In this document: piece by piece, positions 12,469 through 45,578 of the stretch
How positions within the stretch are numbered: position 1 is the stretch's first letter
How the letters are laid out: each line of letters starts with the position of its first letter
Assembly: GCA_025149125.1 (NCBI GenBank)
Contig: CP102272.1
Coordinates: 62,001 to 126,000, forward strand
Source of the DNA: [Clostridium] asparagiforme DSM 15981
GTDB taxonomy: Bacteria > Bacillota > Clostridia > Lachnospirales > Lachnospiraceae
Length of the DNA: 64,000 nucleotides
Direction: 5' to 3'
Made by a program: the position numbers and the translations under genes
The notes under the pieces: generated by a model
Database searches by the model: none
The model's input: the letters and a program-made list of their open reading frames with translations, nothing else
What the model was told of the DNA's origin: nothing

Positions 12469-12620
12469 TCTGTCTCTTAACCTGAAAGATTGGGCTTCGT
12501 CGGTGCGTCATCGCTTTCCAGAGTTTCGTACGGTATCTGGTCCTTTTGCCTGAGAGTTTTTCGCATCCCCTTCGGCTCCGGGGCGAAAATCCATCCCGGC
12601 CTCTCCCAGATCCATCATCC
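12469..12620 (-). ncRNA. Tandem glycine riboswitch
   Basis: Reading the - strand from 12,620, the first aptamer has GGGAGAG, the GCCGAAGGGG core, CTCTCAGGCAAAAGGAC and a closing CAGA. The second begins at ACTCTGGAAAG, with CACCGACGAAG, TCTTTCAGGTTAAGAGACAGAG split across stem and core. These are the conserved core words of the paired glycine aptamers known upstream of gcvT in Bacillus and Clostridia. The aptamers are joined by a short linker (about 12,523-12,531). Position and order before gcvT fit glycine-dependent activation. Confidence 0.92.
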
Positions 12621-12888: not shown

Positions 12889-13761
12889 ATGCACAAGTTT
12901 ATGCGCACGGTTGGATTCAGTATGTACCAGAAAAAGCGGGATATGGAAGCGCTCTTAAAGGAGCTTGCCGCCCAGGCGGTGCGCACCGGCAGACTGGCGG
13001 AGAAGGACGGCAGTATGTTCTGCGAGCTGCGGGCCGAGCTGGCGGACGATATGGGCGTGGTGCTTGCCGGTGAGATGGACGAGGAAGGGAACTTCAGCCA
13101 GGAGTATTATTTCCCTTACGTGAAGAATACCGGGATTAGCTCTGCCGCCGAATGTTCCATCCAGCGTCACGCGGAGAAAGAGACCTACGCCGGGCTTTTG
13201 GACGAATACCGGGTGGGCATTTCCCTGATCTTTTATATGGAGAATTCCCTGGAGTACCGTCTGCGCAGACAGAACAAAGAGGTGACCGAGGCCAAGGGCG
13301 TTTCCCTGACCGGTCTGGCGGTTCAGGGCAAGATCCTTCTTCCGGTGCAAAAGACCAGGCAGCAGGCGGAGAACAGCCGCCAGGAGTCAAGGAAGCGGAC
13401 GCGGCTCATCGAGGCGGCGAAGAACGGGGACGAGGACGCCATTGAGACGTTGACCATCGAGGACATCGACCTGTACTCCATGGTGTCCAGGCGGATTGCA
13501 CACGAGGACGTCTACTCCATCATCGATACCTGCTTCATGCCCTGCGGCGTGGAATGCGACCAGTACGCGGTGATCGGCGAGATCACGGACATGGAGATCA
13601 AGACCAACCGCATGACCGGCGAGGAGGTCTATAATCTGAAGCTGGACTGCAACGACATGCAGTTTTACGTGGCCATCAACAAGAAGGATCTGCTGGGCGA
13701 ACCCCTGCCGGGCCGCAGGTTCAAGGGCCAGGTTTGGATGCAGGGCACGGTGGAATTTTGA
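12889..13761 (+). CDS. DUF3881-like conserved Lachnospiraceae protein of unknown function
   Basis: The reading frame is open from 12,859, but GAAGGTG lies just before the ATG at 12,889, giving MHKFMRTVGFSMYQKK as the N-terminus and about 290 residues. I recognise it as resembling the DUF3881 family of Clostridia, which has no assigned function. No signal peptide or membrane segment is present. It is a soluble protein with a basic Gln/Arg/Lys-rich linker (about 160-185) and a C-terminal part ending in FYVAINKKDLLGEPLPGRRF, which looks like a small beta-barrel. It is transcribed away from the gcv operon and towards the tRNA locus. Confidence 0.75.
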   Translation: MHKFMRTVGFSMYQKKRDMEALLKELAAQAVRTGRLAEKDGSMFCELRAELADDMGVVLAGEMDEEGNFSQEYYFPYVKNTGISSAAECSIQRHAEKETYAGLLDEYRVGISLIFYMENSLEYRLRRQNKEVTEAKGVSLTGLAVQGKILLPVQKTRQQAENSRQESRKRTRLIEAAKNGDEDAIETLTIEDIDLYSMVSRRIAHEDVYSIIDTCFMPCGVECDQYAVIGEITDMEIKTNRMTGEEVYNLKLDCNDMQFYVAINKKDLLGEPLPGRRFKGQVWMQGTVEF

Positions 13762-13796
13762 CTTGATTTTTTTTGAAAAATAGGATACTATAGAAA

Positions 13797-13848: not shown

Positions 13849-13891
13849 GTTTCTGTAGCTCAGCAGGATAGAGCGTCCGCCTCCTAAGCGG
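13849..13891 (+). pseudogene. tRNA-Arg(CCU), 5' half left of the integrated element
   Basis: The bases from GTTTCTG (acceptor strand) through the D-arm TAGCTCAGCAGGATAGAGC and anticodon stem TCCGC with loop CTCCTAA are an intact tRNA 5' half. What follows (GCGGCAGATTGTTCGATTCC) only loosely mimics a tRNA 3' half: the T-stem and acceptor do not pair. The true 3' half is at 45,568-45,609. Joining the two gives a perfect cloverleaf: acceptor GTTTCTG with CAGGAAC, anticodon stem TCCGC with GCGGA, T-stem AGCGG with CCGCT. The gene is therefore split by the conjugative element. Confidence 0.88.
13881..13891 (+). repeat. attL core of the conjugative element
   Basis: CTCCTAAGCGG covers the anticodon loop and the 3' anticodon-stem strand of tRNA-Arg(CCU). 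It recurs exactly at 45,568-45,578. The flanking bases differ on both sides, which fixes the shared core at 11 bases. Confidence 0.85.
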
Positions 13892-13941
13892 CAGATTGTT
13901 CGATTCCTTCGAGCAGTGAAAATTGCATAAATCTTAAAAAT

Positions 13942-14018
13942 GTCTCAGTAGCTCAGCTGGATAGAGCACACGCCTCCTAAGCGTGGGGTCGGAGGTTCAA
14001 ATCCTCTCTGGGACGCCA
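13942..14018 (+). tRNA. tRNA-Arg (anticodon CCU), carried by the element
   Basis: This is a complete cloverleaf of 77 bases including encoded CCA. The acceptor GTCTCAG pairs with CTGGGAC, the D-arm is AGCTCAGCTGGATAGAGC, the anticodon loop CTCCTAA gives CCU for AGG codons, and the T-loop TTCAAAT sits in the stem GGAGG/CCTCT. It lies 50 bases inside the left end of the conjugative element and differs in sequence from the split host tRNA. No clear promoter lies in the 50 bases before it, so it may be transcribed from the host tRNA promoter. It is followed by a strong terminator. Confidence 0.95.
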
Positions 14019-14026
14019 GAAAGCAC

Positions 14027-14064
14027 CGCTGCAAGCCTTTTTTCGGGGTTTGCAGCGTTTTTTT
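14027..14064 (+). terminator. Terminator of the element-borne tRNA-Arg
   Basis: CGCTGCAAGCC pairs with GGGTTTGCAGCG (one G-U) and is followed by a run of seven T. It starts nine bases after the tRNA CCA end. Confidence 0.85.
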
Positions 14065-14073
14065 GTTCCTCCT

Positions 14074-14130: not shown

Positions 14131-14193
14131 TTTGCTAATTGGACTCGAACGCTTTTCAGAAATTTGCTAAGAAAATTCTGCGTTTTGCTAATT
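14131..14193 (+). promoter_or_regulatory. Putative left arm-type integrase binding sites
   Basis: Three direct copies of TTTGCTAA(T/G) occur at 14,131, 14,163 and 14,184, between the attL core and the integrase stop. The same word occurs twice near the right end at 45,412 and 45,423. Short direct repeats flanking the core on both sides are the usual layout of arm sites for tyrosine integrases. This is inferred from pattern only. Confidence 0.5.
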
Positions 14194-14205: not shown

Positions 14206-15600
14206 TCACTTTGCCGGGGCTTGCGCCGCTATTAGGGCTGCGAGCGCACTCGCCAGCTCCGGCGACTTCTGAAGCTGCTCCACAAGGCTTTCAAGGTCCA
14301 GGGTCGCAGGCTCCGATTTTACCGGTTCCTCCGGCGGACGGACGTTGCGAAGATCAGGCTTGGCATAGAAGGCAGTCTCGAATTTCTGAGCATTGACCTT
14401 TCTATCCTCGTCCAGAATGTGAGCATAGATACTGGTTATCATGTCAATCTCGGCATGGCCTGTATCGCCCTGGGTGGCTTTCAGATCGCCGTGGTTGAGT
14501 TTCAGTTTGTAGGTGGTACTGGAATGACGGAGAGAATGAAAGACCACCTTCGGCAGCCCTGCGTCCTCACGGAGCTTTGCAAACTCTTTGAGGATGATCC
14601 GATCCTCGCAGGGCCGTCCATTGGGAAGTGCCACCACCAGATCGAAATCTTGATACTCGTCGCCCAGGAAGCCTTTCAACTCGTCCTGGGACTTCTTCCA
14701 TTCCCGCAGGATGTAAGCCAGCGTTTTCGGCAGCCACACCTTACGGATACTGGAATCGGTTTTCGGCTTTTTCAGAACAATTCTTGTGCTGGTGTTCGGC
14801 ATGAGCGGAGTGAAGATGTAATAGATATCCTTCTCACCCAGCGTTTCAATCGCCCGTTTGGAAGCCCTCGTCAGCTCCTTGTCGATGTAGACATAGGCAT
14901 TATCCGCTGCAATATCTTCATCGGAAATATGGACGTTCTCCCAGGTCAGCCCCAGGATTTCACCCATACGCAGAGAGCAGGCAAAGGAAAGGTTCATTGC
15001 CACATAGAGCTTGCTGTCCGTGCATTTGTCCAGGGCAAGACGGATCATATCCGCCGTCCAGATATCCCGTTTCGCATACTCCGTTTTCGGGAGGATCACA
15101 TTGTCAAAGGGATTTCTTGCAATGATTTCCCATCGTACCGCCTGCTTAAACGCACACCGCAGGAGCTTGATGATCTTTTCAATGGTTTTGTCGCTGACAT
15201 AGGTGGTAACGGCCTTTCGGGTCTTGGTAGACACCGACTTGGTTTTCTGCAAGGTCTGGATATAACCGTCAACCGCACGGGGAGTAACCGCCTGTACCTC
15301 CATATCACCGATGATCGGATTGATATAGTTCGCAATCAGTGCCGTTTGGCCGTCATACATAGACACGCCCCATTTCTTTTCTCCGTAAAGAGATACGAAG
15401 TCATAAAGGAACTCGGTGATCGTCTGATTGCTTGGAGGGAGAAAAGTTCCCGTGTGCTGCTGATTTTCGATTTCCGCCTTGCGCTTCAAGGCCTCCTTGT
15501 GGGTATGCCAGGTTTCCCACTTCTGTTTGGTTTCTCCGTTTTCGTCCACATAGTTGTAAACAACGGAATAGTTTTTCTTTCGCTTGATTATAGATGCCAT
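14206..15600 (-). CDS. int: Site-specific tyrosine recombinase (integrase)
   Basis: This enzyme integrates and excises the element. With the start at 15,600 (MASIIKRKKNYSV, preceded by AAGGAAG) it has 464 residues; the frame is open eight codons further upstream but without a ribosome site there. Domains are an N-terminal arm-binding region, a SAM-like core-binding domain (about 60-160) and the catalytic domain. Catalytic residues are Arg211 in SLRMGE, His355 and Arg358 in HSLRHSS, a histidine in DTGHAEIDM, and the nucleophile Tyr392 in TSIYAHIL. It is transcribed towards the left end, downstream of the excisionase-like gene. The target deduced here is the anticodon loop of tRNA-Arg(CCU). Confidence 0.95.
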   Translation of the reverse strand: MASIIKRKKNYSVVYNYVDENGETKQKWETWHTHKEALKRKAEIENQQHTGTFLPPSNQTITEFLYDFVSLYGEKKWGVSMYDGQTALIANYINPIIGDMEVQAVTPRAVDGYIQTLQKTKSVSTKTRKAVTTYVSDKTIEKIIKLLRCAFKQAVRWEIIARNPFDNVILPKTEYAKRDIWTADMIRLALDKCTDSKLYVAMNLSFACSLRMGEILGLTWENVHISDEDIAADNAYVYIDKELTRASKRAIETLGEKDIYYIFTPLMPNTSTRIVLKKPKTDSSIRKVWLPKTLAYILREWKKSQDELKGFLGDEYQDFDLVVALPNGRPCEDRIILKEFAKLREDAGLPKVVFHSLRHSSTTYKLKLNHGDLKATQGDTGHAEIDMITSIYAHILDEDRKVNAQKFETAFYAKPDLRNVRPPEEPVKSEPATLDLESLVEQLQKSPELASALAALIAAQAPAK

Positions 15601-15620
15601 ATCGTTCTTCCTTTCTTGGA

Positions 15621-15827
15621 TCACAGGTCGAGGGAGTCAAGCCACTCGTCAAATGACCGCTTGGAAATGCGTATGGCGTTACCAATTCGCACGATTTTGA
15701 AGTGCCCTTCTTTTACAAGGATATATGCGGAAGTTCTTCCGATGCCCAGAATTTGAGCAATATCGTCAACCGTATATGTCCTTCTTTCAGGGGTTTCTTT
15801 CTTCGTGCCGTTCCATGTTTGAGACAT
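15621..15827 (-). CDS. Excisionase-like winged helix-turn-helix protein (left copy)
   Basis: This 68-residue DNA-binding protein of the excisionase/MerR-like helix-turn-helix family contains YTVDDIAQILGIGRTSAYIL followed by VRIGNAIRISKRSFDEWLDSL. The last block is the wing and C-terminal helix typical of such proteins. It lies 20 bases upstream of the integrase start in the same direction, the usual Xis-Int order. A close paralogue sits at the other end of the element (45,132-45,329). It should steer recombination towards excision and may also repress its own promoter. It is either Xis or a regulator of int. Confidence 0.85.
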   Translation of the reverse strand: MSQTWNGTKKETPERRTYTVDDIAQILGIGRTSAYILVKEGHFKIVRIGNAIRISKRSFDEWLDSLDL

Positions 15828-17563: not shown

Positions 17564-19276
17564 TCAAGCCGATATTTTTTGCTCTGCGTTCCACATAGCT
17601 GCGTATTTTCCGCCCTTCGCAAGCAATTCTTCGTGGGTTCCTGATTCAGCAATTCTGCCATCACCCATTACAAGGATTTGATCTGCATTTTTGACAATGG
17701 AAAGGGTATGAGCAATCATTACCACTGTCTTTTTTTCTTTTAGCAGATTGGCGATGGCCTGCTTTACGGCAAGCTCATTTTCAATATCAAGAGATGCTGT
17801 TGCTTCATCCAAAAGTAGGATGGGGCTATTTTTCAGGATAGCGCGGGCTATTGAAATTCGCTGACGCTCACCGCCAGAGAGAAGATTTCCATTCTCGCCA
17901 GTCGGCGTATCGTATCCCTTTTCCATCTTACGGATGAAGCTGTCACAGTTAGCCTCCCGGCAGGCAGCCTCGATTTCCGTGTCCGTAGCATTAGGGCGAG
18001 CGTGGCGGATATTATCCCGGATGGTATCATCAAAAAGAAATACGTCCTGGTCTACCATAGAAACTTGTTCCAGTACACGCTCTGCGGCAATATGGTTAAT
18101 GGGTTTACCGCCAATCGAAATCGTCCCGCTCGTTGCTTCATAATATTTTGCAATCAGGTTCAAAATGGTAGATTTGCCGGAGCCAGAGTCTCCGACAATG
18201 GCCGTGAGCTTTTGATCTGGTACCGTAAAGGTGGCGTGTTTTAGTACCGGTTCACCGGGAACATATGCAAAATCTACATTGTCAAATGTGATTTCATGGG
18301 TAGCTGTGTGAAGCGGTTCCATGCTTCCAGTTTCCTCCGGCTCATTCATTACACCCAAGATTTTGTTTTTCGAGATCATCAGGTTCTTATAACTGGTGAG
18401 GTCTACAAAAATCGAGTTAGCCAACTTTGCACAAAACAGGGGTAACATACAAATCAAAAGGTAGTCTACTGTGTTCAGTGTCCCTGCAATCCAAGGTGCA
18501 TAGGACAACCAGATAACCAGCGGACAGGACAGCCAACTTAAAATGCCAAAGCCCGCACCAATGGGAAGCACCTTTGCTTCGTATATAAAGCTGATCCGGC
18601 AAAACTCCCGCATGGCGTTGATAACGGTTTTGTTCTTCATACCGCCTACACCATAAGCTCGGAAAGTCTGAATACCAGAAACATATTCAACAATGCTGCT
18701 GACGTTCTCCGCACAAATATCGTTCTTTTCTTTTCCATATTTCCGTACCATGCGGAAAGAAAGCCACAGGCCGGGGATTAAAAGAAGGTCTGCTATCAGC
18801 AGGATAATTCCAGCTGGAACATAAAGCGTCACAACAAAGACAATCAACATCAATGACAGGGCAAAATTCTTTGCCAAATCTCCGACTTTATGGGTCAGGA
18901 TTTTTTCGTAGTTGTTTACATCGCTTGTGATGGTGTTGATATAATCGCCGGTCTGCCCCTGCGTAAAGCGGGACAGTGGGATGCGCTTCAAATGGTCACC
19001 CATAAAAAGCCGAATATTCTTACTGACCTCCGCACCGCCAATCTGCGCTTTGGTATAACCGTAGCTGTAAATCAGGATACGGAGAAGAAAAACCACTGCA
19101 ATAATACCGGTCAGAGCCAGAACGCGGTTCATGTCAAATTGACCCGACCACAAAAACTGCATAACAGAGTAAAGCAGCATAAACAGGCTGCCGGAGAGAA
19201 GTCCTTCCAGAACGGTTCCGCCGACACCAATATAGAAATTGCGGTTTTTTTTCAATACATCATGCTCATTCATGCT
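17564..19276 (-). CDS. Exporter-fold ABC transporter, permease-ATPase fusion (subunit 2)
   Basis: The ATG at 19,276 (MNEHDVLKKNRN) has GGAGG eight bases upstream and overlaps the stop of the previous gene by 11 bases; the longer open frame to 19,381 has no ribosome site. The product has about 570 residues: six membrane helices (about 20-310) and an ATPase with Walker A GDSGSGKST, signature LLSGGERQR, Walker B LLLDEATASLD and switch histidine IAHTLSIV. It pairs with the next gene as a heterodimer. The fold is that of exporters, but the siderophore importers IrtAB and YbtPQ share it, and the ECF genes in the same operon make import plausible. Confidence 0.9.
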   Translation of the reverse strand, partial: SMNEHDVLKKNRNFYIGVGGTVLEGLLSGSLFMLLYSVMQFLWSGQFDMNRVLALTGIIAVVFLLRILIYSYGYTKAQIGGAEVSKNIRLFMGDHLKRIPLSRFTQGQTGDYINTITSDVNNYEKILTHKVGDLAKNFALSLMLIVFVVTLYVPAGIILLIADLLLIPGLWLSFRMVRKYGKEKNDICAENVSSIVEYVSGIQTFRAYGVGGMKNKTVINAMREFCRISFIYEAKVLPIGAGFGILSWLSCPLVIWLSYAPWIAGTLNTVDYLLICMLPLFCAKLANSIFVDLTSYKNLMISKNKILGVMNEPEETGSMEPLHTATHEITFDNVDFAYVPGEPVLKHATFTVPDQKLTAIVGDSGSGKSTILNLIAKYYEATSGTISIGGKPINHIAAERVLEQVSMVDQDVFLFDDTIRDNIRHARPNATDTEIEAACREANCDSFIRKMEKGYDTPTGENGNLLSGGERQRISIARAILKNSPILLLDEATASLDIENELAVKQAIANLLKEKKTVVMIAHTLSIVKNADQILVMGDGRIAESGTHEELLAKGGKYAAMWNAEQKISA

Positions 19277-21029
19277 GCTCGCCTCCTTCCAACTGATAAG
19301 TGATATTCCGGGCTGTCTCGTAGTCTTTCCACGCATTTCGATAGTAGGCGTTGTTCTTCCGAACTTCCTCATGGGTGCCAACGCTGGTAATTGTATGATT
19401 TTCCACCACAGCCACCCGGTTGCACATTTTCAAAGCACTCAAACGGTGTGCTACTACAATGACTGTTTTGCCTTTGCATAGATTTTGAATAGCTTTATCA
19501 ATCTCCATCTGATTTTCCGGGTCAGAGGCACTTGTGGCCTCGTCCAAAATTAAGATAGGTGCATTTTTCAGAATTGCGCGGGCAATCGCGATCCGCTGTT
19601 TTTCACCGCCGGAGAAGCGAGAGCCAAAGCTACCCACTTTCGTGTCATATCCATCTGGCAAGGACATGATAAAATCGTCAATCTGCGCCTCTTTTGCAGC
19701 AGCCCGCACTTCTTCCAGAGTGGCGTTGCTGCCCATTCGGATATTTTCTAAAACGCTGTCACGGGTCAGGAATGTCTTTTGAAATACGATGGCTACATTT
19801 TTCAGAATGGTATCGTAGTCAAGCTCTTTGACATTTTTTCCACCAATCAGCACTTCGCCCTCCTGCACATCATAGAAGCGGGAGATCAGTTCAATCACAG
19901 TGCTTTTACCGGCACCAGACTGTCCCACAAGAGCCATGCGTTCCCCGTCATTGATTTTGAGGTTGACGCCTTGCAGTACATCGGTCTTGCCGTCATAGGA
20001 AAATCGGACATTGCGAAGTTCAATATCGTGATTTTGGGGAAAGTCCGTTCCACCCTCATAAATCGGAATATCCAGGATTTCTTTGGTCTTGGTAACAGCG
20101 TTCAGTACATTAGCAAAATTAGTCCCCAGTTCTTGCAGGGGGCGGATTTCCGTCAGATACATGGAACCTACATAGACGAACAGCAAAAATGCGCTGGCCG
20201 CCAGTGAGCCTTTGAGGAAAAACATTCCGCCGATTGGAACCATCAGCAACATCCCACATTCGATGATAACAACAAAGGCCGCATAAGGTGGCCCCATGCG
20301 CCGGGAAGTTTCATTCCACATGGTGTTTTCTTCCTGGATAGCGTCTGAAAACTTTTGAAACGATTTGCTCCCCATGTTATAGGCTTTAATCAATTTCATA
20401 CCGCTGATGTACTCAATCATAACCGAGTTCAGTGTGGTAATGGAGCGATTGGCCCGTTCCATCAGGTCATCCGTGTTGCGGAACATCATCCCCATTACAA
20501 CAACAGCAAGAATCAGCGGAACCAGGGAAATCAATGCCAGAGGAATATTGACGGTCATCAGGTAAATAAAGATGACTACCGGCCCAACCAGATAGCACAC
20601 AAGGTCAGGAAGGTTATGGGCCAGGAACAACTCCAGCTTTTCAATATCTTCATTCAGAACCGTTTTTATATCCCCGGTGCGCCGTTCATTCAAGGCCCCC
20701 AAAGGCGCTCTGGCCATGTGTTCCGCAACCATGCAGCGCACTTTGAACAGTGCGCCGTATGCACCTTTATGGGCTGCCACGCCGGAACAGCCGAATAATG
20801 CAAAACGCAGGGTGACAGCGGCGGCAATCATTGCCACAGTCTGTACCACAAGTTCTTTTGTGCAGGCATTGTTAAATGTGGCATCCATCAGCCTGTAAAT
20901 CCCAATATACGGAACAATAATGCAAAGCCCACTGCACATGGACAGCAGGATTGCCAGGAACAGCCAGATTTTCTGGCCTCCGGCCCAATGGAGCAGCAGT
21001 GCTACTCTGTTTTCTTTTTTCTGCTTCAT
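19266..21029 (-). CDS. Exporter-fold ABC transporter, permease-ATPase fusion (subunit 1)
   Basis: This 587-residue partner half-transporter has an N-terminal six-helix membrane domain (from about residue 20) and an ATPase with Walker A GQSGAGKST, signature RFSGGEKQR, Walker B LILDEATSASD and switch His VVAHRLSAL. The D-loop reads SASD rather than SALD, which may make one ATP site weaker. The gene starts four bases after the ECF ATPase stop and ends inside the start of subunit 2, so all five genes from 23,835 to 17,564 form one operon. Confidence 0.9.
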   Translation of the reverse strand: MKQKKENRVALLLHWAGGQKIWLFLAILLSMCSGLCIIVPYIGIYRLMDATFNNACTKELVVQTVAMIAAAVTLRFALFGCSGVAAHKGAYGALFKVRCMVAEHMARAPLGALNERRTGDIKTVLNEDIEKLELFLAHNLPDLVCYLVGPVVIFIYLMTVNIPLALISLVPLILAVVVMGMMFRNTDDLMERANRSITTLNSVMIEYISGMKLIKAYNMGSKSFQKFSDAIQEENTMWNETSRRMGPPYAAFVVIIECGMLLMVPIGGMFFLKGSLAASAFLLFVYVGSMYLTEIRPLQELGTNFANVLNAVTKTKEILDIPIYEGGTDFPQNHDIELRNVRFSYDGKTDVLQGVNLKINDGERMALVGQSGAGKSTVIELISRFYDVQEGEVLIGGKNVKELDYDTILKNVAIVFQKTFLTRDSVLENIRMGSNATLEEVRAAAKEAQIDDFIMSLPDGYDTKVGSFGSRFSGGEKQRIAIARAILKNAPILILDEATSASDPENQMEIDKAIQNLCKGKTVIVVAHRLSALKMCNRVAVVENHTITSVGTHEEVRKNNAYYRNAWKDYETARNITYQLEGGEQHE

Positions 21030-21032
21030 AGA

Positions 21033-22505
21033 CTACCTCTCCTTTCCATCTGAAACAGAGAACAGCTCTCTCAATTTCGGGAGGGCATCCATTGTAACTG
21101 GTACATCATCGGGCATTTCGCCCTCGTCAAAATGCAGGACACGTGAGCAGGTACGGCAGACAAATTCAAAATCGTGGGTGACAATGAAAATGACTTTTCC
21201 CATATTGGATAATCGCCGGATCAATCCTGCAACCTGCGTCATACTGTCAAAGTCAAGGCCGCTGGTCGGTTCATCAAATACAAGCAAGTCTTTCCCACAA
21301 ATCATGCTGACAGCTACAGCTACTCGTTGCTTTTGACCGCCGGAAAGCGTGTTTGGATGTTGTTCTCGATATGGGGAAAGTCCCAGTTCTTCCAAAGTTG
21401 CATTTACCAGCGTTTGGTCTGGATTTCGGATGCCAAAGGAACATTCTGCTTCTACGCTGTCAGCGAAAAGCTCATAGTTCACATCCTGCATGACCATATA
21501 AGAGCGTTGCAGCCTTTCCTTACGCTCAATCGGCTTGCTTTCCCACAAAAATTGTCCATCGCAGTCTTTGTGAAGCCCACAGAGAGCGCGAGAAAATGTA
21601 GTCTTTCCGGCTCCATTGTGGCCGACCACGCCAATCACTTCACCCTTTCCTGCAGATAAGCCAATATCATGCAAAATGGTTCGCTTCTTGTAACGGAGCG
21701 TCACATTCCGTAGCTCTAATACCGGGATAGGGGCAATCGAGTGGGGTTTAGGTGGGAACACCGCCCGAAGATCAACTGCCCGCAGGCCCATGCGTTCACG
21801 CTCCTGTTCCGACAGCTGTCGAAATTCTTCCGGGGTATAAATCCCTTTGATTTCTCCTTTTTCCAGATAAACAATTCGGTCGGCCAGTTCCATCAGGTAG
21901 TACAGCCGGTGTTCTGCTATCAAAACCGTTTTGCCCTGCTTTTTTATCAGCCGCAAATGCTCTCTCAACTCCTGAATGGAAGTCATATCCAAATTGGAGG
22001 ACGGTTCATCCAGCAAATAAATCTGTGGGTTCATGGCATAAACAGAAGCGAAGGCGATTTTCTGCTTTTCACCGCCGGACAACTCAAAAATATTCCGGTT
22101 CCGCAGCTTTTGAATACGCAGATCGTCGGCTGTCTGTTCCACTCGCTCTATCAGCTCTTGTGGAGGACGAGCCTCGTTCTCAATGCCAAAGGCGATCTCG
22201 CTGTCTGTGTCCACATTGAAAAACTGCGTCCGTGGATTTTGGAAAACGGAGCCGACCTTAGCGGCAATCTGATACATAGGGATATTGCTGATTTCCTGAC
22301 CATCTACCAGCACACGGCCATGAAGTTCCCCTTGATAAAATTGAGGAATTAAGCCGTTCACCAGCCGTGTGATCGTTGTCTTTCCGCACCCACTGCGGCC
22401 ACAGAACAGGACACATTCTCCGTCCGAAATTTTCAAATTGATGTCATGCAGCCCGCCATGTTCCTGTCCTGTATAGGAAAACGATACATTTTCAAACTCA
22501 ATCAA
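21033..22505 (-). CDS. ECF-type transporter ATPase with two fused ABC domains
   Basis: The likely start is TTG at 22,505, which overlaps the upstream stop as TTGA and has GGGGAGG about nine bases before it; an in-frame ATG at 22,529 would include that ribosome site in the coding region. The product of about 490 residues has two ATPase domains: GRSGCGKTT with LSGGEKQK and LLDEPSSNLD, then GHNGAGKTT with LSGGQKQR and VFDEPTSGLD. This is a fused EcfA-EcfA' energising module. With the EcfT and MptD-like genes before it, it forms a complete ECF importer. Confidence 0.9.
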   Translation of the reverse strand: MIEFENVSFSYTGQEHGGLHDINLKISDGECVLFCGRSGCGKTTITRLVNGLIPQFYQGELHGRVLVDGQEISNIPMYQIAAKVGSVFQNPRTQFFNVDTDSEIAFGIENEARPPQELIERVEQTADDLRIQKLRNRNIFELSGGEKQKIAFASVYAMNPQIYLLDEPSSNLDMTSIQELREHLRLIKKQGKTVLIAEHRLYYLMELADRIVYLEKGEIKGIYTPEEFRQLSEQERERMGLRAVDLRAVFPPKPHSIAPIPVLELRNVTLRYKKRTILHDIGLSAGKGEVIGVVGHNGAGKTTFSRALCGLHKDCDGQFLWESKPIERKERLQRSYMVMQDVNYELFADSVEAECSFGIRNPDQTLVNATLEELGLSPYREQHPNTLSGGQKQRVAVAVSMICGKDLLVFDEPTSGLDFDSMTQVAGLIRRLSNMGKVIFIVTHDFEFVCRTCSRVLHFDEGEMPDDVPVTMDALPKLRELFSVSDGKER

Positions 22506-23227
22506 CCGATCACACCTCCCCGCACACATAATTCAAAAATCAGATAAGCTACGGCAACGGTCATGACGCCCCAATCGGCAGCTCCGCATTTTATCTGGAC
22601 AAGGCAGGTGCGTGGATTGGGATTTTCAATTCCACGGGTGACAGAAGCAACAGAAAGATCATCCGCTGCTTTTGAAGCTGCCATCAACAAAGGCACATAA
22701 ATACACTCAACTGTCATGCCCGGATGTGCTAAAAAGCTCGCCAGAGAAGGTGAAACATCTCTCATCCGCATAGCGTCCTTGATATAGCGCCAGTCCTCTT
22801 GAATAGTTGGAATGTACCGTAGCATAACTGCCATAGGAATTACTAACTTTTTGGGTGCGTGGACACGGTTCATAGCAGACAGGAACTCATTGACTTTTGT
22901 AGTAGTCAGAACAATCCCGGCCAAGGTTCCGCACGCATATACCTTATGAAACAATCCTAAAAAGGCAATAAACATTGTCCGCAGCGTGCCTGTCATTTCT
23001 GCCATGATCCAAACTGTCAGGGCACAGATGACCGCATAAAAGCATACAGCCTTAATGACATATTTCCACTTTCCAAAGAAAGCCCCCAATACCGCAATCA
23101 GCATAACAAGGACAAATTGATATGCAAGTGAAGGAGCAAACATGGACGATAAAACACACATAAGAATAAGAAAGAGCTTGGCCCGTGGGTCGAGCCAAAG
23201 CCCTTTCTTGTGGCGTTTACCGCTCAT
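22502..23227 (-). CDS. ECF transporter transmembrane component (EcfT/CbiQ family)
   Basis: This 241-residue membrane protein has about five hydrophobic segments and the two coupling helices of EcfT, with arginine motifs IKDAMRMRDVSP near residue 140 and SVASVTRGIENP near residue 200. These match the Ala-Arg-Gly-type motifs that contact the ATPases. It overlaps the S-component stop by four bases (ATGA). It would couple ATP hydrolysis by the neighbouring double ATPase to toppling of the S-component. Confidence 0.9.
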   Translation of the reverse strand: MSGKRHKKGLWLDPRAKLFLILMCVLSSMFAPSLAYQFVLVMLIAVLGAFFGKWKYVIKAVCFYAVICALTVWIMAEMTGTLRTMFIAFLGLFHKVYACGTLAGIVLTTTKVNEFLSAMNRVHAPKKLVIPMAVMLRYIPTIQEDWRYIKDAMRMRDVSPSLASFLAHPGMTVECIYVPLLMAASKAADDLSVASVTRGIENPNPRTCLVQIKCGAADWGVMTVAVAYLIFELCVRGGVIG

Positions 23228-23835
23228 GCTGTAATACCTGCTTTTTCAAACTGCTTTTTCAGCATTTTGCAGCCTACAAAGGCGCTGATCGCAGATGTAA
23301 TAATAGCAGCGGCAAACATGGCAATCAGAATGCCGGTGTTAGCGGTTGCCTGCATGGTGTCGATGTAGCTCTGTTCGGTTCCATTACCCAGCATTGTCTG
23401 CGCCCAGCCGTTGGGGTCAGCAAAGAAAACGATATACGATCCAGTACCGCCGAGGGAAAACAGGATGTAAGACAGACTGTTGAGTTTCTTGCTTTTGTAT
23501 TGCCCTGCACCCGCAACAAAGTCCGCGACAATCGCCATGATCAGATAACCCAATGCAAAAGCCCAGTGCATACCGGTCACGAACCAAATAATACCCATGA
23601 TAACGCCCATTATAGAAAGGCTCCAACGCTTATGTACTTTTGCAATCAGCAAAAGATAAATGGGGCCAGCAAGCAGCCCACCTCCTGCTGGCATGAAAAA
23701 AGTAAGTACAGGATTCGTTGCAAAAAAGACACCGCCCACCAATACAAAAACAAATAACAGTGCAGTAAAAATACCTGTTGTTACAAGGTCTTTCACTGTC
23801 AGACCTTTGTTCATAGAATTTACTTGATTACTCAT
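23224..23835 (-). CDS. MptD/Trep_Strep-family ECF substrate-binding (S) component
   Basis: This 203-residue integral membrane protein with five to six helices starts MSNQVNSMNKGLTVKDLVTT. It is recognisable as the MptD-type ECF S-component family by the TVKDLVTTGIFTAL opening and the FMPAGGGLLAGPIYLLL stretch. AGGAGG precedes the ATG. It is the first gene of the five-gene cargo operon and is divergent from an AraC regulator. The substrate of this family is not established; the exporter-fold pair and regulator hint at an iron or metal chelate. Confidence 0.85.
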   Translation of the reverse strand: MSNQVNSMNKGLTVKDLVTTGIFTALLFVFVLVGGVFFATNPVLTFFMPAGGGLLAGPIYLLLIAKVHKRWSLSIMGVIMGIIWFVTGMHWAFALGYLIMAIVADFVAGAGQYKSKKLNSLSYILFSLGGTGSYIVFFADPNGWAQTMLGNGTEQSYIDTMQATANTGILIAMFAAAIITSAISAFVGCKMLKKQFEKAGITA

Positions 23836-25680: not shown

Positions 25681-26010
25681 ATGGCAAACCGAAAGCGGAA
25701 TATCCAAATGAAATTCTATGTTACGGAGGATGAAAAACGGCTCATAGACGAAAAAATGAGCCAGCTCCCCACACGCAGATATGGTGCCTACCTCCGCAAG
25801 ATGGCGATTGACGGGTATATCATCTATACGGACACCGCAGATATCAAGGCATTTACCAAAGAGCTTTCCGCCATTGGTCGGAATATCAACCAGATTGCCA
25901 AGCGGATCAACGCCGGAGCTCCTGCGTATCAGGCCGACATGGACGAGATACAGGAAAGGCTGGACGAGATATGGCAGTTACAAAGACACATCCTATCAAG
26001 TCAACGCTGA
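25681..26010 (+). CDS. mobC: Relaxosome accessory protein MobC
   Basis: The start at 25,681 (MANRKRNIQMKFYV) is preceded by GGAGGCGGC. The product has 110 residues: an N-terminal ribbon-helix-helix-like part (KFYVTEDEKRLIDEKMSQLP), then the MobC signature LRKMAIDGYI and ELSAIGRNINQIAKRINAG. MobC proteins open oriT and help the relaxase nick. The last 40 bases overlap the relaxase start in another frame, so both are made together. The longer open frame from 25,588 lacks a ribosome site and runs through the presumed oriT. Confidence 0.9.
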   Translation: MANRKRNIQMKFYVTEDEKRLIDEKMSQLPTRRYGAYLRKMAIDGYIIYTDTADIKAFTKELSAIGRNINQIAKRINAGAPAYQADMDEIQERLDEIWQLQRHILSSQR

Positions 26011-27314
26011 AAGCAGCCATTGACTATATCTGCAACCCGGAGAAAACAGACGGGAAGCTCCTGATATCCGCCTATGGCTGCGCCGCCGAAACTGCAGATA
26101 TCGAATTTTCCTGGACCCGCCGCCACGCCATCGACAAGGGAACGAACCTGGGCCGACACCTGATCCAAGCCTTTCAGCCTGGGGAGGTTACGCCGGAACA
26201 GGCCCATGAAATAGGCATGGAGCTTGCAAAAGAAATCCTGGGCGGAAAGTACGAGTTTGTACTTACCACCCATATAGACAAAGATCATGTTCATAACCAC
26301 TTGATTTTCAATGCGGTCAGCTTTGCGGATCACAAGCACTATCATTCCAACAAGCGAAGCTATCACGATATCCGCCGCACCTCAGACCGGCTTTGCAAGG
26401 AACACGGTCTGTCCGTCATCATCCCCGGACAGGACAAGGGTAAGAGCTATATTGAACATCAGGCCGCGCAGAATGGCACCAGCTATAAGGCGAAGCTGAA
26501 AGCGGCCATCGACCGGCTCCTGCCAGCCTGTTCCGATTTGGAAGAACTGCTTCGCCGCCTGCAGAGAGAAGGCTATGAGATCAAGCGGGGCAAATATATC
26601 TCCGCCAGAGCGCCGAATCAGGAACGGTTTACCCGTCTGAAAACCCTGGGTGTGGACTACACCGAAGAAGCCCTTGCCGCCCGGATCGCCGGACGATCCA
26701 GACCTTCCCGCCAACCGAAACGGCAGGACGGAAAGATCAGCCTGCTCATTGATATCCAGAATAACATTAAGGCACAGCAGAGCGCAGGCTTCACCCATTG
26801 GGCGAAGCTGAACAATCTGAAACAGGCCGCCAAGACCATGAATTTCCTGACGGAACACGGGATAAGCAGTTATGGAGAACTGGAAAGCAAATTGACCGCA
26901 GTATCCGCACGCAGGGATACCGCTCATGCAGAGATCAAGCGGATAGAAAGCAGAAGTGCCGAACTTGCCCTTGTGATGAAGCATGCCGGAACTTACCGTC
27001 AGCTAAAGCCGCTTTATGAAAGATACCGTAAATCGAATGATAAAGAAAAGTTTCTGCGGGGGCATGAGAGCGAGATCATCCTTTTTGAAGCGGCCGCCAG
27101 AGAATTAAAACGGCTGGGGACTGTGCCGCTGCCGACAACGGAAAGCATGAAAACGGAGCTTGCTAATCTCAACGCAGAAAAGGAACGGCTCCTTGCTGAA
27201 TATAAAGCCGCAAGAGCCGAAGCCCAGGAATACGATACCGTCAAGCAGAATGTGGATGCGCTGCTGACCGTTCCAAAGGAACAGGAACAACAGCGGCGGC
27301 ATGAACTGGAATAA
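25971..27314 (+). CDS. MOBP-type relaxase/mobilisation nuclease
   Basis: This is the 447-residue enzyme that nicks oriT, stays bound to the 5' end and leads the strand into the recipient. The N-terminal relaxase domain (about 1-220) has the metal-binding histidines His101, His106, His108 and His110 in HIDKDHVHNHLIFN, and SYHDIRRTSDRLCKEHGLSV after it. The nucleophile tyrosine is probably Tyr18 in AIDYICNPEKT. The C-terminal half is mostly coiled helix (from about residue 260). The start lies inside mobC. It is transcribed towards the element centre, opposite to the transfer operon. Confidence 0.93.
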   Translation: MAVTKTHPIKSTLKAAIDYICNPEKTDGKLLISAYGCAAETADIEFSWTRRHAIDKGTNLGRHLIQAFQPGEVTPEQAHEIGMELAKEILGGKYEFVLTTHIDKDHVHNHLIFNAVSFADHKHYHSNKRSYHDIRRTSDRLCKEHGLSVIIPGQDKGKSYIEHQAAQNGTSYKAKLKAAIDRLLPACSDLEELLRRLQREGYEIKRGKYISARAPNQERFTRLKTLGVDYTEEALAARIAGRSRPSRQPKRQDGKISLLIDIQNNIKAQQSAGFTHWAKLNNLKQAAKTMNFLTEHGISSYGELESKLTAVSARRDTAHAEIKRIESRSAELALVMKHAGTYRQLKPLYERYRKSNDKEKFLRGHESEIILFEAAARELKRLGTVPLPTTESMKTELANLNAEKERLLAEYKAARAEAQEYDTVKQNVDALLTVPKEQEQQRRHELE

Positions 27315-37128: not shown

Positions 37129-37294
37129 GGCCCTTCGGTACACGGAACGGTTCGATCTCACTTTCCAACTCCGCAAGGACCGCCTCCATATCCGCCGTGA
37201 CCGCCTTACTTCTGGCAATCAGCCGGTTCATCACATCAAAGAAGGTTTCGCCCTCCTGTTTTTCTTCCGTATGCAAATAGCGGGGATCATTCAT
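37121..37294 (-). CDS. Small hypothetical protein of the transfer operon
   Basis: AAAGGAG lies 10 bases before the ATG at 37,294, giving 57 residues: MNDPRYLHTEEKQEGETFF, then a helical DVMNRLIARSKAVTADMEAVLAELE region. It overlaps the stop of virB4 and the start of the methyltransferase, each by eight bases, which supports it being translated. It is charged and soluble with no known family. It might regulate the following methyltransferase, but nothing proves it. Confidence 0.6.
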   Translation of the reverse strand: MNDPRYLHTEEKQEGETFFDVMNRLIARSKAVTADMEAVLAELESEIEPFRVPKGHE

Positions 37295-39716
37295 GTTCGT
37301 TTTCTCCTTTCCCGGTTTCACCAAGTTTTGTCGTCATAATGCTGTAAAGTTCATTGTCCTTCGGGAAGTCATCCACAAAAGGCAGGATCACATTGCCGAA
37401 GAAGATCAGCCCCTCGCCGGGGCCTGCGTTGCTGATATGCGCCGCCTGCTGGTTAGAGATATTCAGGCGCTCGCAGAGAATTTTTCTGTCTCCGCTGGCC
37501 TGGTTCAGAAGGTACACAAAATCGCTGTTTTCAAAGATGTTCTCAATCTCCGGGGAGGAAAGCAGGTCCTTAATGTTCTGCGTGATCCCTGTGGGGATAC
37601 CGCCCCATTTGCGAAAGCGTTTCCAAATCTCCACGCTCCAGGCACCAACCTCGCCGCGCAGCAGAAGGTGGAACTCGTCTACGAAGTACCAGGTGGATTT
37701 ACCCTGATCCCGGTTTTGGGAAACACGGTTCCACACCTGATCCTGGATCACCAGCATACCCAGGCTTTTGAGCTGCTTTCCCAGTTCCTTGATATCAAAG
37801 CAGACAATGCGGTTGTTGATATCCACATTGGTGCGGTGATTAAAAACATTCAGGCTGCCATGCACATACAGTTCCAGTGCCGCCGCGATCCGCTGTGCCT
37901 CCGGCTCCGGCTGCCGTTTGATCTCGTCATACAAATCTTCCAACAGCGGCATATTCTCCGGGCGGGGGTCTGCAATATAGGGGCGGTACACGATCCGCAC
38001 AGCACGGTCAATGACCGTTTTCTCCACCGGCTCCAGACCGTTCCGTCCGCCTGCCGCCAGTTCGCAGAATGACAGGATAAAGTCGGATTTCAGCGCCAGC
38101 GGGTTATCGTCCTCGCTATAATTGAGGTTGATATCCATAGGGTTCACATACTGCGTGCTGGTAGGCGAGATTTTGATGACCTGGCCTTCCAGCCGGTTCA
38201 CCAGCGGAAAATATTCCGCCTCCGGATCGCAGATCAGGATATCGTCCTTTGTGTTCAGGAACACACCCACGATGGAACGCTTTGCAGAAAAACTCTTGCC
38301 GCTACCGGGTGTGCCTAAGATCATGCCGTTGGGTGTTTTCAGCTTTTTGCGGTCAGCAAGGATCATGTTGCCGGAAGTGGCATTAAGCCCGTAGTAAAGA
38401 GCTTCGCCGCCGTGGAAAATCTCCTGTGTGGTGAAGGGAACGAACACCGCCACCGCCGAAGTGGTAAGCCCGCGCTGTATCTTAATGCGGTTGACACCCA
38501 GGGGCAGAGCCGACACGAAGCCGTCCTCCTGCTGAAAGTCCAGCCGCACCAGGGAGCAGTTATATTTCTGCGCCACGCTTGTCGCACGGAGAAGGTCATT
38601 CTCCAGCTTTTGCTTGCTGTCCGCAAAGTTCACCACCAGGAAGGTCATCAGGAACATTCGCTCATTTCTGCTTTGCAGATCACGGAGGATGTTCTTTGCC
38701 TCGCCTGCGTAGGTGGCAAGGTCAGTGGGGATGATATCCATATCGAAACCTTCCCGCACCGCCTTTTTCTGCGCGTCGATCTTCATACTGTCAATATCGG
38801 TGATCTTTCGCTTGACCGTTTTGATCGCCTCGTTCTGATCCATGCTGCGGATATGGAGGCTGACAAGCAGCCCGCTGTCCGTATCCAGCAGTTCGGTGAG
38901 CATACGGTCATCCATTTCCGGTGCGCTGATCTGCAGAAAGGACACGGCACAGAATTTATCCGCCATCGTGAACTTCCGTGCTTCACCGAAGCGGAAAGAA
39001 GAAGGTGCGATAAAATCCTGAACCGACAGGCCGGAAGGGGCAAGCCAGCTCCATTCAAAGGCAAACCGTTCCCCGTCCGGGTGCAGGATGCCGTGGAGCA
39101 TTTCCAGCCACTCCTTGCCGCCAAGCTCCTTTGCCAGAGCACCCATGACCTTGAAATGGTTGAGGGCGTCCATGACGATCCGGGAAAATCGTGCCCGTGC
39201 AGTTTTACTGTCCCGTGCCTCGATGGTGAGGGTCAGGTACTTTGTTTTGATAAGACCGTTGTTGCCCCGTTCAAGCTGCTTGCGGAGCATTTGCGTGTAA
39301 AGCTCACGGATATGGTCAAAGTGATCTCCCTGCGCCGCGATCTCGATACGCTTCACAAAATCCTCCCGGTTCATGCGGCGGCTCACAAGGGAGAGCTGCA
39401 TCCCGATAGAAGCGTCATGGGCGTTATACATATCGCAGAGGGCTTCAAAGATCGCCGTCTGGTCGTCAGGCTTTGCAAGCTGATAATTCACATCCTCGAA
39501 CTCGATACACTTCGACCAGATGTGGTCGTCCAGCTTGCACAGACCGTCCGGGTACATCTGGCGGAACGGTAAGGTGTCCTGTGCGGAATGTACCTTGCCG
39601 TCGCCTCTGGCGGTTTCCAGGATACGGCTGATCTCACGCTTTTCTGCGGCGGTCAGTTTTACCGCGGCTTTTGCCGCCTGCCGTGCCTGCGGCTCTGGCT
39701 TTCGCTTTCTGAACAA
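37287..39716 (-). CDS. VirB4-family conjugation ATPase
   Basis: This 809-residue motor of the type IV secretion channel has a VirB4 N-terminal domain (about 1-430), then a RecA-like ATPase with Walker A GTPGSGKS at Gly468-Ser475, Walker B region STWYFVDEFHLLL and the late NIKDLLSSPEIENIFENSD block common to TraE/VirB4 proteins. The start lies 83 bases inside the prgI gene in another frame, so the two are co-translated. It acts at the inner face of the membrane with VirD4. Confidence 0.93.
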   Translation of the reverse strand: MFRKRKPEPQARQAAKAAVKLTAAEKREISRILETARGDGKVHSAQDTLPFRQMYPDGLCKLDDHIWSKCIEFEDVNYQLAKPDDQTAIFEALCDMYNAHDASIGMQLSLVSRRMNREDFVKRIEIAAQGDHFDHIRELYTQMLRKQLERGNNGLIKTKYLTLTIEARDSKTARARFSRIVMDALNHFKVMGALAKELGGKEWLEMLHGILHPDGERFAFEWSWLAPSGLSVQDFIAPSSFRFGEARKFTMADKFCAVSFLQISAPEMDDRMLTELLDTDSGLLVSLHIRSMDQNEAIKTVKRKITDIDSMKIDAQKKAVREGFDMDIIPTDLATYAGEAKNILRDLQSRNERMFLMTFLVVNFADSKQKLENDLLRATSVAQKYNCSLVRLDFQQEDGFVSALPLGVNRIKIQRGLTTSAVAVFVPFTTQEIFHGGEALYYGLNATSGNMILADRKKLKTPNGMILGTPGSGKSFSAKRSIVGVFLNTKDDILICDPEAEYFPLVNRLEGQVIKISPTSTQYVNPMDINLNYSEDDNPLALKSDFILSFCELAAGGRNGLEPVEKTVIDRAVRIVYRPYIADPRPENMPLLEDLYDEIKRQPEPEAQRIAAALELYVHGSLNVFNHRTNVDINNRIVCFDIKELGKQLKSLGMLVIQDQVWNRVSQNRDQGKSTWYFVDEFHLLLRGEVGAWSVEIWKRFRKWGGIPTGITQNIKDLLSSPEIENIFENSDFVYLLNQASGDRKILCERLNISNQQAAHISNAGPGEGLIFFGNVILPFVDDFPKDNELYSIMTTKLGETGKGENEHE

Positions 39717-41224: not shown

Positions 41225-42982
41225 TTAAGTTGTTGCGTCAATCTCGTACACATCGAAGGTGTCCGTGGGTTTTACCACGGTACGCTGCTTCTTCATGTAC
41301 CGTTCCATGTCAAAGACATTTTTAGGGTCGGCGTCGGCCGTGTATCTGTAATTCGGGTGCCGGGTGAGGTCGTACTTGTCCGAAAGGAACGGGCGCACGC
41401 CCCGCAGCATGAAGATACACTTGCCACCGTCCATCACTGCCAATTCGTCTTGGGTCATCAACTCCTTTCCTAATTTCTGATAACTGAGGCCATGGGAAAC
41501 CTGACTGCCCCGGTTTTCAGACTGGTTATAGAGATCAATGGTCTCTTTTCCCAGCAGCTCCGAAATTTCCTTGAGCGTGGATTTCTCCTTGCCTCCCAAA
41601 AACAAAGTGCTGTCACAGTTACCGACGATGGTATCTGCCGCGTCCTTGTAGATGGTCTTTAGCTGACTCTGCGACTGCAAAATAATAGAAGCCGATATTT
41701 CACGGCTTCGGATGGTGGCAATCAGCTTATCGAAGTTCGGTATCTGGCCGATGTTGGCAAACTCGTCCAGGATCAGACGGACATGGACGGGCAGCCGCCC
41801 GCCGTAGAAGTCATCCGCCTTGTCGCAGAGCAGATTGAAAAGCTGACTATACATGAGGGCGGCCACGAAATTGAAAGTGTTGTCCGTATCCGAAAGGATC
41901 ACAAACAGCGCCGTCTTTTGGTCGCCCAGGGTATCCAGTTCCAGTTCGTCATATTCCATCAGGTCCCGCAGCTCCTTGATGTCGAAGGGAGCAAGCCGGG
42001 CGCCACAGGAAATGAGGATGGATTTTAAGGTTTTGCCCGCCGCCATCTTGAATTTGCGGTACTGCTTGACGGCGAAGTGGTCCGGCTCCCGTTCCTCCAA
42101 CTGAGAAAAGAGCAGGTCCACCGGGCTTTGATAAGTCTCGTCGTCCTCTCTGGCTTCACTGGCATTGATAAGGTCCAGAAGTGTGATGAAGTTCTTTTCT
42201 TCCTCCGTGGCCTCGTACCAGATGTAGCCGATCAGTGCGGAATAATAGAGGCGTTCCGCTTTGACCCAGAAATCTTCCGAAGATTTTTCGCCTTCGCCCT
42301 TCGTGTTCATAATCAGGGCGTTCACCAGCTTTAAGATATCTTTCTCTGATCGGATATAAGCCAGCGGATTGTATTTCATGGATTTTCGGAAGTTTATCAG
42401 GTTGAGGCACTTGATACGGTATTTCTTCCGTTCCAGGAAAGCGCCGATCTCCGGCAGCAAGGTTCCTTTCGGATCAGTGCAGACATAGGACGAATGAGCT
42501 TGCAGCAGCGACGGCTTACAGAAGAACCGCGTCTTGCCGCTGCCGGAACCGCCGATCACCAGAATGTTTTTATTTCTGGCATACTTCGGCTGCTTTGGGC
42601 GGCTCGCCATCGTGATTCGCTCCGTCTGCGTCATGGGGATGTTCTGGAAAAAGTCCTTGTCCATGTAGGGGGCGATATCCGCCGCTGTCCCCCAGCGGGC
42701 AGAACCATACTCGATCCCGTGACGGTACTTCTTAGCGTTCTTGCCTTTCAGGTAGACTGCCATGCGGAGAATCACCGCACCGGCTATGCCGATCAGCAGG
42801 TCCGTGGGATGGAAACTGAGCCACGGGGAGGAAAGCGCTGCCGTGAAGCCGTCCCCAATGGAAAGCAGCTTGCCAGAGAGGTCAGCACCGGGCGCAAGCC
42901 GGAAAGCCTGTGCCAGCTTATCGAAGGGATACACGAACAGAAGATACGGAAGGTTCAGCAAAAACAGTTTTTTCATGTTCAT
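41225..42982 (-). CDS. VirD4/TraG type IV coupling protein
   Basis: This 585-residue ATPase links the relaxosome to the channel. It has two N-terminal membrane helices (about 5-20 and 45-75) and a Walker A GGSGSGKTRFF with Lys150. The Walker B region contains VHVRLILDEFANIGQIP and is followed by SREISASIILQSQSQLK. The start overlaps the pcfB stop (ATGA). The coupling protein selects the relaxase and possibly the accessory proteins of this operon that share a C-terminal SIRERL module. Confidence 0.95.
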   Translation of the reverse strand: MNMKKLFLLNLPYLLFVYPFDKLAQAFRLAPGADLSGKLLSIGDGFTAALSSPWLSFHPTDLLIGIAGAVILRMAVYLKGKNAKKYRHGIEYGSARWGTAADIAPYMDKDFFQNIPMTQTERITMASRPKQPKYARNKNILVIGGSGSGKTRFFCKPSLLQAHSSYVCTDPKGTLLPEIGAFLERKKYRIKCLNLINFRKSMKYNPLAYIRSEKDILKLVNALIMNTKGEGEKSSEDFWVKAERLYYSALIGYIWYEATEEEKNFITLLDLINASEAREDDETYQSPVDLLFSQLEEREPDHFAVKQYRKFKMAAGKTLKSILISCGARLAPFDIKELRDLMEYDELELDTLGDQKTALFVILSDTDNTFNFVAALMYSQLFNLLCDKADDFYGGRLPVHVRLILDEFANIGQIPNFDKLIATIRSREISASIILQSQSQLKTIYKDAADTIVGNCDSTLFLGGKEKSTLKEISELLGKETIDLYNQSENRGSQVSHGLSYQKLGKELMTQDELAVMDGGKCIFMLRGVRPFLSDKYDLTRHPNYRYTADADPKNVFDMERYMKKQRTVVKPTDTFDVYEIDATT

Positions 42983-45131: not shown

Positions 45132-45329
45132 TCACAATTCCAAACTTTCCAGCCACTCGTCAAAAGATTTCTTGGAGACGCGGATCGCATTGCCTATGCG
45201 GACGATCCTGAACTCCTCCTGCTTGACGAGCTGATATGCGGTTGTGCGACCGATGTTGAGCATGGCCGCAATCTGTTCCACGGTGTATGTGCGCGGTTCC
45301 GGCAGTGACTTTTTCTCTTTCTTGTCCAT
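45132..45329 (-). CDS. Excisionase-like helix-turn-helix protein (right copy)
   Basis: GGAGG lies before the ATG at 45,329 (MDKKEKKSLPEPRTYTVEQI), giving 65 residues. It is a paralogue of the left-end protein: RTYTVEQIAAMLNIGRTTAY with VRIGNAIRVSKKSFDEWLESLEL, against RTYTVDDIAQILGIGRTSAY with VRIGNAIRISKRSFDEWLDSLDL. It is the last gene before the right attachment core. Either copy could be the real excisionase, with the other acting as a transcriptional switch. Confidence 0.82.
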   Translation of the reverse strand: MDKKEKKSLPEPRTYTVEQIAAMLNIGRTTAYQLVKQEEFRIVRIGNAIRVSKKSFDEWLESLEL

Positions 45330-45411
45330 AGTAACCTCCATGTATTTGCCTTGTCATTTTGACTAAGGGAGTGAAGAATGGCAGTAGCAATCGGCTTTGG
45401 CTGGGTGTCCT

Positions 45412-45432
45412 CTTGCTAAGAATTTGCTAATA
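45412..45432 (+). promoter_or_regulatory. Putative right arm-type integrase binding sites
   Basis: CTTGCTAAG and TTTGCTAAT sit head to tail about 140 bases inside the right core. They match the three copies inside the left end. The surrounding gap (45,330-45,567) has no gene. Confidence 0.5.
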
Positions 45433-45567: not shown

Positions 45568-45578
45568 CTCCTAAGCGG
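45568..45578 (+). repeat. attR core of the conjugative element
   Basis: CTCCTAAGCGG is identical to the left core at 13,881-13,891 and begins the displaced 3' half of the host tRNA-Arg(CCU). Confidence 0.85.

Follow-up and report, generated by a model that had tools for sequence, protein, structure and literature searches.

The locus described here raises the question of what becomes of a tRNA gene when a mobile element integrates in the middle of it, and of why a second, complete tRNA gene with the same anticodon lies just inside that element. The window, the whole 64-kb stretch of DNA analysed, comes from [Clostridium] asparagiforme DSM 15981, whose genome is a single contig of 6.35 Mb.

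The split gene and the element

In the sequence of the window a host tRNA-Arg(CCU) gene is split at its anticodon loop by a 31.7-kb element. An 11-bp core, CTCCTAAGCGG, is present twice, at 13881-13891 and 45568-45578, and the pieces of the broken gene adjoin its two copies:

13849 to 13880, plus strand: 5' half of the broken host tRNA-Arg(CCU), which pairs with the 3' half at attR at 12 of 12 stem positions
13881 to 13891, plus strand: attL core CTCCTAAGCGG, with the anticodon loop CTCCTAA at 13881-13887
45568 to 45578, plus strand: attR core CTCCTAAGCGG, the second copy of the 11-mer
45579 to 45609, plus strand: rest of the 3' half of the broken host tRNA-Arg(CCU), 87.3% identical over 63 bases to locus L143

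When the host flanks were joined in silico, ARAGORN called a tRNA-Arg(CCT); it called no tRNA at attL once the carried copy was left out, and none at attR. The chimera formed at attL (13849-13915) scored 24.9 bits with the Rfam tRNA model, under the gathering score of 29. Classical restoration of the target tRNA, by a 3' part that the element supplies, was found at neither junction. A seven-base overlap at the anticodon loop was reportedly described for tRNA-targeting integrases by Williams in 2002 (cited in PMC8371274), and this is shared here. The carried tRNA was also considered as the element's own 3'-end target, with the element starting at 14000; this was ruled out, since it is the upstream tRNA that the 3' half at attR matches.

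Judged by its predicted genes, the 31.7-kb segment is an integrative and conjugative element, the att sites enclosing genes for an integrase, a relaxase, a coupling protein and type IV secretion:

14131 to 14191, plus strand: three TTTGCTAA repeats from a repeat search, candidate arm-type integrase sites
14206 to 15603, minus strand: tyrosine integrase (Pfam Phage_integrase, 1.3e-13; 80 relatives)
15621 to 15827, minus strand: small HTH_17 protein by profile match, a probable excisionase
25971 to 27314, plus strand: relaxase (MobA/VirD2-like), profile match
37287 to 39716, minus strand: TraG P-loop protein by profile match, probably a VirB4-like ATPase
41225 to 42982, minus strand: type IV secretion coupling protein, profile match
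45132 to 45341, minus strand: second small HTH_17 protein, near the right end, profile match
45413 to 45431, plus strand: two TTGCTAA repeats at the right end, repeat search

The 20 element ORFs scanned also included topoisomerase, NlpC/P60, ArdA-domain and ABC or cobalt-transport-type proteins, and none of the phage structural families that would mark a temperate phage was among their matches. The two HTH_17 (excisionase-like) genes, at 15621-15827 and 45132-45341, are alike and stand one by each end of the element. A cargo region at 17564-23835, with two ABC exporter-type genes, a double-ATPase ABC protein, CbiQ and Trep_Strep, resembles an ECF-type transport cluster. TTGCTAA occurs at the left end (14132, 14164 and 14185), at the right end (45413 and 45424) and elsewhere (27160, 20110 and 45733); we infer that the copies at the ends are integrase arm sites. 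Just beyond attR, 71-124 bases past the host 3' half, TGCTAA repeats at 45681-45740 resemble those of the element's left end, and comparable repeats past the 3' half were present in 5 of 17 other loci checked.

The carried tRNA and its promoter

The earlier note on this DNA, made from the letters of the sequence, had placed a complete tRNA-Arg(CCU) 50 bases inside attL, with a strong terminator after it, no good promoter in the gap and the promoter of the broken tRNA pointing at it. The 50-base spacing (13892-13941) and the terminator, which starts at 14027, were both borne out:

13763 to 13791, plus strand: probable host tRNA promoter TTGATT-17 bases-TACTAT from a motif scan, the TTGATT-17 spacing being found also in L143
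13797 to 13828, no strand: perfect-looking inverted repeat in the sequence between promoter and 5' half, in the host leader
13892 to 13941, plus strand: left end of the element, serving as tRNA leader, with a relic-like T-loop motif and no promoter-like site of at least 9/12
13942 to 14018, plus strand: carried (replacement) tRNA-Arg(CCU) with CCA encoded (ARAGORN; Rfam tRNA model, 64.3 bits)
14027 to 14065, plus strand: intrinsic terminator 3' of the carried tRNA, a hairpin at 14027-14057 and a T run

The carried gene, called as tRNA-Arg(CCT), was the sole tRNA that ARAGORN reported in the 64-kb window, and the broken 5' half starts 93 bases upstream of it. Comparable genes from other elements gave 88 rows, some of which are one locus twice, so that the valid count is 42 distinct carried tRNAs. 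The loop CTCCTAA was present in all 42 and CCA was encoded in 37. Standard pairs filled 871 of 879 stem cells (mean 665 and highest 689 in shuffles), changes on both sides were seen in 17 of 21 pairs (mean 11.1, highest 15) and two-sided changes were held by 195 cells (mean 45, highest 62), the shuffles taking no account of relatedness among the 42 tRNAs. By these counts the cloverleaf of the carried tRNAs is maintained by compensatory changes.

The attL flank had also been said to look like a decayed tRNA 3' half, and this impression held up. Besides the sub-threshold match of the attL chimera, 37 of the 54 distinct left ends have a T-loop motif, TTCRANYC, at a constant offset of 11 bases past the loop; the figure for shuffles is 0.4%, and the spacing in a whole tRNA of the same kind is 15. 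The motif would fit a decayed 3' half, although a role in integrase binding is possible instead, and it is plausible that carriage of a whole gene succeeded repair by a 3' half over time.

Which promoter reads the carried tRNA was approached by motif searches. In the window the scan also listed an overlapping site, TTGACT-17-TAGGAT, at 13758-13786, and a TTGATT-17-TA pair lies at the same place in the window and upstream of the unbroken L143 tRNA. Repeats similar to the inverted repeat precede the tRNA in L124, L131 and L134, and a changed form does so in several loci of the same genus. With a promoter-like site defined as at least 9 of 12 matches and a second hexamer that stops 7 or more bases short of the tRNA, the scan found none in 13892-13941. 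The leaders had such sites as often as their shuffles did (2 of 57 against 2.0), while there was an enrichment before the 5' halves, both in stretches of 150 bases (37 of 61 against 9.65) and in stretches of 64 bases (13 of 61 against 4.05). This enrichment before the 5' halves and not in the leaders favours reading from the host promoter, as the earlier note had proposed, and on this motif evidence it is probable that the host promoter reads the carried tRNA.

The carried tRNA could instead be driven by a promoter of its own in the 50-base leader, independent of the host promoter. The leader is AT-rich, and the mean best promoter score of the leaders (6.79) was slightly over that of shuffles (6.07), so that weak or non-sigma-70 promoters are possible. 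At L104 a strong promoter-like site stands immediately before the tRNA, and at 6 of the 80 loci related to this one by integrase the intact tRNA lies behind something other than a 5' half, often the right end of another element, and so lacks the original promoter. Yet neither the leaders in general nor 13892-13941 showed an excess of sites at the 9/12 level, the enrichment lying before the 5' halves, and at a cut-off of 8/12 the leaders with a site numbered 6, against 9.85 in shuffles. An own promoter is, on balance, unlikely.

The empty site and the relatives of the integrase

Two similar tRNA sequences in tandem would also be seen if this were an ordinary chromosomal gene pair with one decayed member, the element lying next door by chance. 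However, the first tRNA has its 3' half at attR, at a distance of 31.7 kb, and is completed by it, and the second tRNA goes with the integrase in many genera. A conserved pair at a site free of the element had been named as something to look for; what was found instead, at the equivalent locus (L143) of a genome of the same genus (G013), was a single, unbroken tRNA. The gene upstream of it aligns with its counterpart in the window at 72.6% over 883 bases; on the attR side the similarity stops at 45630. This empty site rules out the chromosomal pair, which is scarcely credible. A glycine riboswitch aptamer at 12528-12618 on the minus strand is kept near the equivalent tRNA site in L143 and L144.

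A count of the tRNA-Arg(CCU) genes in the genome had also been called for. The Rfam tRNA model gave 66 tRNA places (150 of 200 candidates scored), and ARAGORN, run over those places and the window, found 66 tRNAs with the arginine anticodons ACG, CCG, TCT and the carried CCT. The carried copy is the only intact CCU tRNA among those 66. A pattern of CCU loop plus T loop matched 44 times in 14 genomes, and these matches were sorted by reading into 14 intact copies, 19 lone 3' halves and 11 chance matches. Each of the 14 genomes has one intact copy, always borne by an element and preceded by one or more split 5' halves. In the window's genome the tRNA-Arg(UCU) probably reads AGG as well, and the CCU tRNA may therefore not be essential.

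Some phages are thought to bear tRNAs for codon supply, according to the introduction of PMC10865867, and the carried tRNA might likewise serve mainly to translate the element's AGG codons, its position being incidental. Nevertheless, AGG was less frequent in the 12 element ORFs counted, at 3.3 per 1000, than in 10 flanking ones, at 6.6 per 1000; moreover, the anticodon of the carried tRNA is always that of the target gene, and its place is always attL. Codon supply, very improbable as the main role, was rejected on the lower AGG content of the element ORFs counted.

The search for sister elements with the same tRNA near the integrase, another check that had been suggested, was carried out with the integrase sequence; 80 relatives were kept out of 148 returned. 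An intact tRNA-Arg(CCU) stands beside 64 of these 80, on the strand opposite to the integrase and 150-290 bases past it, a recurrence at one place that goes beyond chance; the tRNA is split at the anticodon loop beside 15, and one has neither. By motif, the 80 loci fall into 56 with an intact tRNA and an upstream 5' half (L106 included, although its nearest core is CTCCAAA), 6 intact behind something else, 2 intact with no upstream core, the 15 split at the loop, and L076, with no tRNA piece within 520 bases. The distance from core to core is 80-113 bases in 55 of the 56. L104 and L073 have an intact tRNA-Arg(CCU) near the integrase and no upstream core; these are possibly carried tRNAs that have turned into ordinary chromosomal genes.

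Integrases at least 97% identical to that of the window occur in Oscillospiraceae, Gemmiger, Coprococcus, Cuneatibacter, Faecalibacterium and others, and in the 11 elements with such integrases (window included) the carried tRNA comes in 2 distinct versions and the 5' half in 8. In a comparison of 52 elements the integrase distance correlated with the carried-tRNA distance (r 0.53; none of 2000 permutations as high) and weakly with the 5'-half distance (r 0.27; 10 of 2000 as high), in a set that leaves out L073, L104 and L106, which have no core upstream, and 10 loci whose 5' half fails the motif, at least four of which (L096, L100, L103 and L105) resemble tRNA halves. The carried tRNA follows the integrase across hosts and the broken half does not. 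Taken with the single-tRNA empty site in the same genus, this agrees with the earlier claim that the carried tRNA is a property of the element that replaces the broken one, and from these comparisons of loci the replacement is well supported.

A carried tRNA-Arg(CCU) was found at 15 further loci, each with an integrase-like ORF 39-86% identical to that of the window. Among phage records 434 match the integrase, all at less than 60% identity. Of five records looked at whose integrases are 44-50% identical, three from phages and two from plasmids, one, a Subdoligranulum record, had the arrangement; the stretch covered in the other four contained no tRNA. The carried-tRNA trait is not universal among the more distant integrases. 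In IMG/VR 16 stretches fit the pattern of a split gene plus a tRNA, three of them with tRNA-Arg(CCT), and a relative of the window's integrase was found in none of the 16. The IMG/VR contigs L246 (3984-4082), L235 and L241 have CTCCTAA about 90 bases before a tRNA-Arg(CCT) and are possibly attP sites of unrelated phages with the same trick. An order-level survey found the pattern in 21 of 392 genomes, at least four being chance-like by eye, and the reversed control pattern in 7 genomes; a class-level survey, which overlaps it, found the pattern in 12 of 391, two of them chance-like by eye.

Stacked integrations and their significance

In several genomes at least two split 5' halves stand in a row ahead of one intact tRNA. 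These ladders have two rungs in G002, G005, G006, G063, G067, G068, G070 and G021, three in G007, G061 and G066, and five in G069. For 14 of the 19 3' halves (that of the window included) a partner forming all 12 stem pairs is present in their own ladder, and between genomes only 18 of 470 pairings of 5' and 3' halves form all 12. Where a contig holds two partnered 3' halves, in G005, G067 and G068, the order is nested: the newest 5' half goes with the nearest 3' half and the oldest with the farthest. The other five of the 19, one each in G067, G068, G063, G069 and G007, have no full partner, and rungs can therefore be lost or exchanged. Among the four split carried tRNAs whose genomes were looked into, L074, L083 and L086 have their 5' half in a ladder of their own genome, while that of L122 is absent from the ladder. 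L074 sits on the contig of L210.

Instead of repeated integration, slippage or homologous recombination between short repeats might have built such ladders. G069 has three nearly identical 93-base ladder units and no 3' half matching the ladder, and some rungs are absent elsewhere. Against this, the different 5' halves in G005, G067 and G068 have their own 3' halves tens of kilobases off, in nested order, and for three of the four split carried tRNAs just named, a ladder in their own genome contains the 5' half. The near-identical 93-base units of G069 may indeed be slippage; as an account of the ladders in general it is improbable. At L196, in G069, six CTCCTAA cores stand in a row, four of the units being nearly identical, at a spacing of 93 bases.

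Repeated integration is the preferred reading, and reuse of the carried tRNA as a landing site, which was not part of the earlier note and is new here, is strongly supported by the sequence of the matching halves. It is somewhat more doubtful, though still rather favoured, that the site renews itself, each newcomer destroying the only tRNA-Arg(CCU) of the cell and supplying its successor behind the unchanged old promoter; the position would then be inherited from element to element, the stacks would nest and the ladder of 5' halves would record the integrations. If so, the newest element always holds the working gene and its loss would be penalised, except by exact excision. The broken 'host' tRNA of the window may itself descend from the carried copy of an older element.

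The whole explanation, comprising splitting at the loop, a replacement tRNA behind the host promoter, a reusable target and nested stacks, is given a probability of about 0.8. The tyrosine integrase would recombine at the seven-base anticodon loop CTCCTAA of tRNA-Arg(CCU), splitting the host gene, which would be rebuilt at neither end, as is seen in the window, and bringing in a complete tRNA-Arg(CCU) about 50 bases inside the left end. Given where the broken tRNA's promoter lies, its transcript most likely runs through the 5' half and a short leader into the carried tRNA and ends at the terminator. As it has the same anticodon loop, the carried tRNA would again be a target; another element could land in it, split that copy and supply the next. 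Nested stacks would result, with one whole tRNA kept near the original promoter, as the ladders and their matching 3' halves indicate. An element with a whole gene in place of a 3' half would have no need to match the acceptor stem of its recipient, which would fit its spread over many genera.

The nearest known system is the tRNA-dependent lysogeny of actinobacteriophages defined by Guerrero-Bustamante and Hatfull in 2024 (PMC10865867). There too a tyrosine integrase uses a short core, of about 10 bp, in a host tRNA, neither junction rebuilds the tRNA, and the element supplies a whole tRNA of the same isotype. The carriers, however, are phages, mostly with tRNA-Lys and tRNA-Ile2, whereas here a conjugative element of Clostridia carries tRNA-Arg(CCU). 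The phage tRNA has a demonstrated promoter of its own, as reported for phage Fionnbharth, and is required, as proven by deletion; here the tRNA is directly behind the target's promoter and its role is a predicted one. Natural nested stacks also set the present elements apart from those phages, although the same authors speculate that a second plasmid might integrate into a plasmid-borne tRNA gene. Their discussion mentions prophage Lj965 of Lactobacillus johnsonii, which leaves its target tRNA unrestored and encodes a cognate tRNA; that is a prophage and not a conjugative element.

Classical tRNA-targeting islands and ICEs likewise have a tyrosine integrase and a target in a tRNA gene, but restore the target through a carried 3' part, whereas the attL chimera here is no tRNA. 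Tycheposons (PMC10872708) share a border tRNA and a tyrosine recombinase; they are cargo transposons of other phyla, and no description of nested splitting of carried tRNAs was found for them in the excerpts of that source. Nor did the portions of the open-licence literature covered yield a report of conjugative elements with replacement tRNAs or of nested carried tRNAs.

The principle is, then, already published for phages; what is new is its occurrence in conjugative elements, the placement behind the host promoter and the natural stacks. With this, tRNA-dependent integration reaches beyond phages, to conjugative elements that form a widespread group in gut Clostridia. As halves from different genomes so seldom fit fully, carriage of a whole gene would remove a host-range barrier, which suggests why the element bears a whole tRNA rather than a 3' half. 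The ladders are a natural record of the order of integration. In many genomes a conserved tRNA gene may be the property of an element, which bears on the annotation of tRNAs and on the stability of the elements.
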